Shown piece by piece: positions 43,946 through 46,763 of a stretch of 50,727 nucleotides of DNA. Source of the stretch: Flavobacteriaceae bacterium (lineage in GTDB: Bacteria > Bacteroidota > Bacteroidia > Flavobacteriales > Flavobacteriaceae); NCBI GenBank assembly GCA_002400885.1, contig NVRM01000007.1, positions 1 through 50,727 of the forward strand. The letters are read 5' to 3'. Below the pieces are notes generated by a model. That model was not told the DNA's origin. It ran no database searches and was given only the letters and a program-made list of their open reading frames with translations. Each line of letters starts with the position of its first letter. Position 1 is the stretch's first letter. A program made the translations under genes and the position numbers.

Positions 43946-44449
43946 ATGGATATAATTTTAGCAGTTTTAGGATTAATATTTGCATTTGTAGGCATTATCG
44001 GTGCTTTTTTACCCGTACTTCCAGGTCCAATAACTGGATGGGTTGGACTATTATTATTGCACTTAACGGACACCGTTCCTATGAACTGGCTGTTTTTAGG
44101 CATCACACTAGCCGTTGCCATTCTTATTTGGATATTGGATTATATGATTCCTGCCATGGGAACTAAAAAATTTGGAGGCAGTAAATACGGTGTTATAGGA
44201 ACCACGGTTGGATTAATTGTAGGACTGTTCTCTCCGATCCCTTTTGGTTTTCTAATCGGGGCTTTTGTAGGTGCCTTTGTAGGCGAAATGATCTATGATC
44301 GCAATGATAAAAAACGCGCCACCAAAGCTGCATTTGGCTCTTTTCTAGGTTTTATAACCTCTGCTTTTCTGAAATTTATAGTCGCGAGTATATTCTTAGG
44401 CTTGTATGTGATGAAATTGTGGGAATATCGGGAGATTTTCGGGTTGTAA
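43946..44449 (+). CDS. DUF456 domain-containing membrane protein
   Basis: Gly-rich hydrophobic repeats (FVGIIGAFLPVLPGPITGWVGLLLLHL) typical of DUF456. Confidence 0.85.
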   Translation: MDIILAVLGLIFAFVGIIGAFLPVLPGPITGWVGLLLLHLTDTVPMNWLFLGITLAVAILIWILDYMIPAMGTKKFGGSKYGVIGTTVGLIVGLFSPIPFGFLIGAFVGAFVGEMIYDRNDKKRATKAAFGSFLGFITSAFLKFIVASIFLGLYVMKLWEYREIFGL

Positions 44450-44728: not shown

Positions 44729-44831
44729 AAAAAAAGCGTCCCGGTTTTTCGGGAAGCTTTCCATTGGTTTTTTCAAACCGTGACATCTCTCGATGTCAAA
44801 CAACACAACTAAACCAAGAAATTAATCTTGG
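44729..44831 (-). ncRNA. Candidate orphan structured small RNA
   Basis: TTG-N19-TATCTTTG promoter (44837-44866), hairpins CCAAGA/TCTTGG, GACATC-GAGA-GATGTC, GGTTT-GAAA-AAACC, and terminator AAGCTTCCCG...CGGGACGCTT+T7; no ORF. Confidence 0.65.
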
Positions 44832-44836
44832 GTAGG

Positions 44837-44866
44837 CAAAGATACGCCTTTTATTAAAACTACCAA
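44837..44866 (-). promoter_or_regulatory. Bacteroidota promoter for sRNA candidate
   Basis: -33 TTG (44864-44866), 19-nt spacer, -7 TATCTTTG (44837-44844). Confidence 0.65.
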
Positions 44867-45062
44867 CTATAATTTTAAAAACAATGATTTATTTTGAATT
44901 ATTTCAGTTATATAGCCCTCTCCTATTCATAGAAAAACATCAGAATTAACAAAAGTAAAAAATCCGTGTAATATGAAAGAGAACTCTAATTTTCACGGGC
45001 GGTTTATGATATAGATTGTATCTTTGGCAACTATTAGTAAAATAACATTAAAATTTAGTAAC

Positions 45063-46763
45063 ATGCAGTTATCAGCATTAGAAATTGTACGAAGAGAATC
45101 GCTACAGAAACTACGTGACTTGGGTATTGATCCATTTCCAGCAGCAGAATTTAAAACCACCGCAACTATCGAGGAGATAAAGCAGGATTTTGAGAAGTTT
45201 GAGGGGAAGAAGGTAGTTTTAGCTGGGCGTTTGATGAGTCGACGTATTATGGGAAAAGCTTCCTTTGCTGAACTAAAAGACGCTTCTGGCCGTATGCAAA
45301 TTTACATCAACCGAGATGAAATTGCACCAGGAGAAGACAAGACCATGTACAATATCGTATTCAAGAAATTATTGGATATGGGAGATATTATTGGAATAGA
45401 AGGAGACGTTTTTAAGACCAAAGTAGGAGAATATTCTGTACGTGTAAAAAAATTAACCTTATTAACAAAATCATTAAGACCTCTGCCTGTTGTTAAAACA
45501 GATGCCGATGGTAAAGTACATGATGCGTTTTCTGATCCAGAAACGCGTTACCGTCAACGTTATGTAGATTTAATTGTAAACGACCATGTTAAAGAAACCT
45601 TTATCAAACGTTCAAAAATCACCAATTCTATGCGTGAATTTTTCAACAAAAGAGGTTATTTAGAAGTGGAGACTCCTGTATTACAACCTATTCCTGGTGG
45701 AGCAGCTGCACGTCCGTTTATTACACATCACAATTCTTTAGACATGCCTTTGTACTTAAGAGTTGCGAATGAATTATACTTAAAAAGATTAATTGTTGGT
45801 GGTTTTGACGCCGTTTATGAGTTTGCAAAAGACTTTAGAAACGAAGGAATGGACCGTACCCACAATCCAGAATTTACCGTTATGGAGTTGTATGTAGCTT
45901 ATAAAGACTACAACTGGATGATGAATATGACCGAGGAATTATTAGAGAAAATCTGTGTAGATTGTAACGATACCTCTGAGGTGATGATCGGCGAACATAA
46001 AGTAAGCTTTAAGGCGCCTTATGCACGTATACCTATCCTACAAGCCATTAAAGACCATACAGGTTATGACGTAGCAGGAATGGATGAATTCCAATTGCGT
46101 GATATTTGTAGAAAATTAAAAATGGACGTGGACGAAACCATGGGTGTTGGTAAATTGATTGATGAATTGTTTGGAGAAAACTGTGAACGTTTTTATATCC
46201 AACCTACATTTATTACTGATTATCCGAAAGAAATGAGTCCTTTAACAAAGGAACACAGAGATAACCCTGAATTAACAGAGCGTTTTGAGTTGATGGTCAA
46301 CGGAAAAGAATTGGCCAATGCCTATTCTGAACTGAATGATCCTATAGACCAACGTGAACGTTTTGAAGCGCAAATGGCCTTGTCTGCAAAAGGAGATGAC
46401 GAAGCGATGTTTATTGACCAAGACTTTATCCGTGCATTAGAATATGGAATGCCTCCTACTTCTGGTATCGGAATTGGAATAGACCGTTTGGTGATGTTTA
46501 TGACTAACAATGCCTCTATTCAAGAAGTGTTATTCTTCCCTCAAATGAAACCAGAGAAGAAAGCACCGACAGTTGAATTAAACGATGATGAAAAAATGGT
46601 ATTAGCCATTGTTCAAAAAGCAGAGAAAATAGCGTTGGATGATTTAAAAACTGAAAGTGGATTGAGCAATAAAAAATGGGATAAAACCATTAAAGGCTTA
46701 GGTAAATTCAACTTAACCAAAGTGGCCAAAACAGCTGAAGGTTTGTTTGTAACCCTAGGCTAG
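45063..46763 (+). CDS. lysS: Lysyl-tRNA synthetase (class II)
   Basis: FKTKVGEYSVRVKKLTLLTKSLRPLP, RYRQRYVDLI, FAKDFRNEGMDRTHNPEFTVME, GIGIGIDRLVM; promoter box TATCTTTG 45019-45026 supports start at 45063. Confidence 0.96.
   Translation: MQLSALEIVRRESLQKLRDLGIDPFPAAEFKTTATIEEIKQDFEKFEGKKVVLAGRLMSRRIMGKASFAELKDASGRMQIYINRDEIAPGEDKTMYNIVFKKLLDMGDIIGIEGDVFKTKVGEYSVRVKKLTLLTKSLRPLPVVKTDADGKVHDAFSDPETRYRQRYVDLIVNDHVKETFIKRSKITNSMREFFNKRGYLEVETPVLQPIPGGAAARPFITHHNSLDMPLYLRVANELYLKRLIVGGFDAVYEFAKDFRNEGMDRTHNPEFTVMELYVAYKDYNWMMNMTEELLEKICVDCNDTSEVMIGEHKVSFKAPYARIPILQAIKDHTGYDVAGMDEFQLRDICRKLKMDVDETMGVGKLIDELFGENCERFYIQPTFITDYPKEMSPLTKEHRDNPELTERFELMVNGKELANAYSELNDPIDQRERFEAQMALSAKGDDEAMFIDQDFIRALEYGMPPTSGIGIGIDRLVMFMTNNASIQEVLFFPQMKPEKKAPTVELNDDEKMVLAIVQKAEKIALDDLKTESGLSNKKWDKTIKGLGKFNLTKVAKTAEGLFVTLG

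Follow-up and report, generated by a model that had tools for sequence, protein, structure and literature searches.

Does the DNA between a DUF456 gene and lysS in a Flavobacteriaceae bacterium hold a free-standing RNA gene and, if so, of what kind and with what role? The locus lies at positions 44866-44729 (minus strand) of the window, that is, the whole stretch of 50,727 nucleotides analysed here (contig NVRM01000007.1), where the initial annotation had placed a candidate orphan structured small RNA (sRNA) with its own promoter and terminator.

A structured RNA gene under selection

The strand, coordinates, sequence and TTG-N19-TATCTTTG promoter described for this RNA were all confirmed in the sequence, and no open reading frame (ORF) of at least 40 aa covers it on either strand, in agreement with the earlier view that it is non-coding. 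The RNA is intergenic, with a promoter and an intrinsic terminator and without an ORF, and the features of the locus are as follows.

43946..44449, plus strand: DUF456 gene (an ORF, named in the initial annotation), which adjoins the RNA in most lysS-linked loci
45024..46763, plus strand: lysS, divergent neighbour, which likewise adjoins the RNA in Lutibacter, Polaribacter and Tenacibaculum
44864..44866, minus strand: -33 element TTG, 19 nt from TATCTTTG; TTG-N19-TATCTTTG is kept in four congeners
44837..44844, minus strand: -7 element TATCTTTG, a TAnnTTTG sigma-A box of Flavobacteriaceae (consensus per PMC9723704)
44729..44832, minus strand: sRNA gene of about 104 nt, with a predicted start and an end within the T run (fold, homologues, covariation)
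44814..44831, minus strand: hairpin 1 (CCAAGA/TCTTGG), clade-specific, where other genera have the terminator hairpin of tRNA-Asp
44799..44809, minus strand: near-invariant single strand GTTGTGTTGTT, the proposed seed; 89 of 95 aligned sequences have GTTGTGTTG without a change
44782..44797, minus strand: hairpin 2 (GACATC/GATGTC), a covarying helix; all six pairs changed on both sides, 98% of cells paired
44766..44779, minus strand: hairpin 3 (GGTTT/AAACC), conserved in sequence itself
44729..44762, minus strand: conserved intrinsic terminator, (AAT)GGAAAGCTTYCC ... GCTTTTTTT (fold and alignment)

In F. psychrophilum, the TAnnTTTG box is found at -12 to -5 (Guerin et al., PMC9723704), and on this spacing the start would lie near 44832 (minus strand), giving a body of about 104 nt. 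In Lutibacter and Polaribacter, TATATTTG is the equivalent of the -7 box TATCTTTG.

The folding energy of the 108-nt sequence is -37.3 kcal/mol, as compared with -20.8 +/- 3.3 for dinucleotide shuffles (z = -5.06), and the predicted fold consists of the three hairpins and terminator that had been proposed. The GNRA-type loops that had also been pointed out, GAGA and GAAA, are indeed present at the tips of hairpins 2 and 3 in this RNA, but the loops vary among homologues, and the GNRA character is therefore incidental.

Conservation of the stems in relatives had been set as a check, and compensatory changes were indeed found. In an alignment of 90 distinct sequences, which was fitted to a covariance model and so favours the structure, standard pairs fill 97.6% of pair cells (85.1 +/- 0.5 in shuffles), changes on both sides occur in 13 of 21 pairs, a result reached by none of 500 shuffles, and the covariation score is 0.394, as compared with 0.133 +/- 0.007 for shuffles and at most 0.08 for slid structures. 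RNAalifold, run on that alignment, predicts nearly identical helices, and a nine-sequence MAFFT alignment already displays the structure. In four of the five pairs of hairpin 3, both partners have changed at least once or come close to it; the terminator hardly varies. This covariation shows that selection acts on the RNA. Together with the fold, the homologues and the conservation of the promoter, it is strong support for a structured RNA gene that stands alone, with a promoter and a terminator of its own.

Almost no variation is seen in GTTGTGTTG, in the GGUUU/AAACC hairpin or in AATGGAAAGCTTYCC; in hairpin 3 and AAUGGAAAGCUUYCC, the letters themselves are kept as well as the pairing. A small ORF starting from the conserved AUGG was considered and rejected, since AUG, GUG or UUG may stand at that place and the ends of the frame differ.

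Comparison with known RNA families

No Rfam 15 family reaches its gathering score at this locus, and the homologues in other genomes have no Rfam match besides the neighbouring tRNAs. The best relaxed matches, Phe_leader (29.3 vs 55 bits) and GibS (24.4 vs 115), derive for the most part from the terminator and from A/T-rich DNA, and these, 6S-Flavo and other sub-threshold matches were set aside as below gathering. GibS and BTnc231 of Bacteroides (RF04182, RF04180) are, like this RNA, intergenic Bacteroidota sRNAs with a terminator; however, the scores (BTnc231, 14.3 vs 80.4) are far under gathering, the GibS match is mainly terminator and A/T-rich upstream DNA, and the present family has no matches beyond Flavobacteriaceae.

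Flavo-1 (RF01705), which had been named as a possible identity, is also a structured RNA of flavobacteria and does occur in this genome, but it is unlike the RNA in sequence and architecture and its cut-off of 42 bits is never passed at the locus. Elsewhere in the window genome, Flavo-1 lies above its cut-off at 13 places. 6S-Flavo (RF01685) is likewise a stand-alone flavobacterial RNA; it forms one long bulged hairpin and has no match to this locus, and a whole-genome search with it was uninformative, as the genome is 75% complete and the control matched nowhere. The initial annotation had said that an exact match to an Rfam family would make the RNA real but not new; no family, Flavo-1 included, matches this locus at its gathering score, but the RNA is probably already known in one species as Rfp18 (see below).

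Distribution and genomic settings

By DNA search, the RNA was found in all four sampled genomes of the genus (one of them that of the window), with weak matches in others. Its conserved 3' motif ACCARTGGAAAGCTTCCC occurs, with one mismatch tolerated, in 45 of 301 Flavobacteriaceae genomes, and most of the matches examined are this RNA. A covariance model built from nine diverse sequences (R2) detects it in 146 of the 301 at E <= 0.001; the filters of this search were strict, so that weak members were perhaps missed, and the E-values are rough. With a wider model (R3), matches were obtained in 31 of 195 genomes sampled in the order and eight of 245 in the class, all of them from Flavobacteriaceae and none from outside the family. 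Genera bearing the RNA in the named scan include Flavobacterium (with F. psychrophilum), Polaribacter, Tenacibaculum, Lutibacter, Lacinutrix, Bizionia and Tamlana, among others. Several genomes hold two to five copies (e.g., G036, G107 and G202; loci L028, L039 and L072). A 3.3-kb contig labelled Candidatus Gracilibacteria (L133) has the Flavobacteriaceae-type trio of lysS, sRNA and DUF456 and is probably misbinned.

Two settings are seen. In the window, Lutibacter, Polaribacter and Tenacibaculum, the RNA is free-standing between lysS and DUF456, while in Flavobacterium, Lacinutrix and Bizionia it sits just 3' of tRNA-Asp. Among 68 named loci, lysS adjoins the RNA in 38, with an upstream TAnnTTTG box in 36 of these; one further locus (L107) has DUF456 within range without lysS. 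In 25 of the 68, the RNA immediately follows a tRNA-Asp(GUC) gene of like orientation, and at a further four an apparent tRNA 3' end lies at the edge. A terminator hairpin usually separates tRNA from sRNA, and in four loci the two are merely 8 nt apart. In some genomes tRNA-Asp and sRNA form tandem units, at least once 341 bp apart. The lysS of the window organism is 81-84% identical to that of Lutibacter, which suggests that the two are close. Given its family-wide spread, its link to tRNA-Asp in 25-29 of the 68 named loci and its probable identity with Rfp18, the label "orphan" does not fit this RNA.

In F. psychrophilum DSM 3660, an island of about 9.5 kb that encodes a tyrosine integrase and has a large ORF resembling a restriction enzyme (L256; G720:C43:4280-13865) is flanked by two repeats, each containing the complete sRNA together with the tRNA-Asp 3' end. 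The island uses this site and restores both the tRNA-Asp end and the sRNA, which explains the two sRNA copies of the type strain.

Relation to Rfp18 of Flavobacterium psychrophilum

Rfp18 has been described as an sRNA of the fish pathogen F. psychrophilum that is conserved in the genus and strongly folded, and its pairing has been predicted within the 107-bp fpp2-fpp1 intergenic region, through a region given as the "third stem-loop" (Guerin et al., PMC9723704). In a delta-rfp18 mutant, the mRNAs of fpp1 and THC0290_0300 were lowered, while that of fpp2 was not (Guerin et al., PMC9723704). The RNA studied here shares with Rfp18 a strong fold, conservation beyond the species and an about equal map position, and the published fpp2-fpp1 target region of Rfp18 carries a stretch complementary to it. 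The DSM 3660 copy, 3' of tRNA-Asp, is on a contig that also holds a 195-aa ORF (upstream of dxs), dxs and two M36-type metallopeptidases, genes which match THC0290_0297, THC0290_0298 (dxs, TSS 356,002) and the metalloprotease THC0290_0300 (anchor span THC0290_0297-0300). Via the dxs anchor, the homologue is placed at approximately 334 kb of THC02/90, between Rfp11 (182,564) and Rfp36 (840,245), and linear interpolation, which assumes that Rfp numbers follow chromosome order, gives an Rfp number of 16.8.

The fpp2-fpp1 region begins ACAACAACACACTAAAACGC and holds, at the fpp2 stop and just before a terminator-like hairpin, the 9-nt AACAACACA, the complement of the invariant UGUGUUGUU of the sRNA. 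The best 14-nt sRNA window against this region is AAGTTGTGTTGTTT (p ~0.007 vs random local windows, uncorrected for window number). It is thus likely that the RNA in F. psychrophilum is Rfp18. Against a different RNA, such as another Rfp or a tRNA-Asp trailer that the published study did not score as an sRNA, stand the genus-wide conservation, the position and the fpp2-fpp1 complementarity, all of which fit Rfp18; we consider this the less probable case, although one to be taken seriously. In its favour, the interpolated 16.8 would also allow the number of a neighbour (e.g., Rfp15), there are two copies in the type strain, and the best pairing lies in a weakly folded UG-rich stretch with no obvious fit to the "third stem-loop". 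The duplex energy of the whole sRNA with the fpp2-fpp1 region does not stand out, which counts against the pairing. The scopes also differ, the genus as published for Rfp18 and the family for the RNA described here.

A proposed trans-acting role

On balance, we favour the view that the RNA regulates in trans and belongs to a single family of sRNAs spread across Flavobacteriaceae, of which Rfp18 is most likely another member. In this proposal, sigma-A would transcribe the RNA of about 104 nt, which in other genera would derive from the tRNA-Asp transcription unit. Helix 2, free in sequence, would keep the exposed UG-rich part of the RNA away from an unvarying module at its 3' end, and the near-invariant, single-stranded UG-rich GUUGUGUUGUU would pair with AC-rich mRNA segments (AACAACAC), so that seed pairing may alter translation, stability or termination of the mRNA. 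The putative pairing site in F. psychrophilum would lie after the stop codon of fpp2 and before the terminator-like hairpin ahead of fpp1; a site 5' of fpp1 fits the published result that fpp1 mRNA, but not fpp2 mRNA, is lost in delta-rfp18. No seed match of at least 8 nt was found beside fpp2-like metalloprotease genes in 22 other Flavobacterium genomes.

Target searches in the four congeners gave no clear enrichment: the complementary 10-mer AACAACACAA occurs 102 times, as compared with 86 for the reversed control. Sites of the AACAACACAA type stand just before the start of purD in four of four congeners and of purE in three of four, and also at carB and trpA, and a complementary site falls inside the start of a transketolase gene; all five genes are presumed to be such from recognition of their N-terminal sequences. 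In three congeners (L301, L269, L275), transketolase-like genes begin ATGGCAACAACACAACAA, with an 11-nt complement of the sRNA in codons 2-5. Across 90 purD leaders, a seed match of at least 8 nt is present in 14 of 72 sRNA-positive genomes and the reversed motif in 12; since the latter is as common, the purD matches are explained by AC-rich leaders, and purD and purE were not retained as seed targets. Flavobacteriaceae leaders just before start codons are AC-rich (e.g., AAACAACAACA-ATG) and carry the motif in both orientations (L350-L439), by which seed searches with GU-rich sRNAs are confounded. The RNA may have a broad effect on AC-rich leaders. The fuller version, in which a family-wide sRNA, often made with tRNA-Asp, would act through its invariant UG-rich seed on the AC-rich leaders of these bacteria, which lack Shine-Dalgarno sequences (with the purD, purE, carB and transketolase starts among the matches), and so couple tRNA-Asp transcription to nucleotide biosynthesis, appears improbable.

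The lack of clear enrichment in the seed target tests would also suit an RNA that binds or titrates a protein, with the invariant GUUGUGUUG and hairpin 3 with AAUGG as the recognition site and mRNA pairing of minor importance, as would the retention of hairpin 3 and AAUGGAAAGCUUYCC in sequence rather than in pairing alone. However, no protein partner is known, and the effect of delta-rfp18 on specific mRNAs (PMC9723704) speaks against it if Rfp18 is this RNA, and we regard such a role as unlikely. Although the RNA lies directly 3' of tRNA-Asp in many genera, 8 nt away in four loci, a leader or attenuator of a neighbouring gene or a functionless tRNA-Asp trailer is very hard to reconcile with an RNA that in the window clade has a promoter and a terminator of its own, is oriented away from lysS and keeps its fold, and on which covariation shows selection.

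Significance

The RNA is a real, well-conserved gene of a known kind that is absent from Rfam, for which reason genomes are not annotated for it. No other description of it was found in the open-access literature, and its family-wide extent with covariation, its two genomic settings and its near-invariant UG-rich segment appear undescribed. Few sRNA families are known in Bacteroidota besides those of Bacteroides, and this one, with a conserved seed-like segment and a fold backed by covariation, is present in about half of the sampled Flavobacteriaceae genomes. The shift between the two forms of the gene, one linked to tRNA-Asp and one standing alone under its own promoter, offers a natural experiment on the gain or loss of an sRNA promoter. 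If the RNA is Rfp18, then Rfp18 would lie just 3' of tRNA-Asp near 334 kb of THC02/90, with the sequence AAGTTGTGTTGTTTACGTTACGCC..., the published protease phenotype would reach a much wider group of bacteria, and a comparative search for targets would become feasible.
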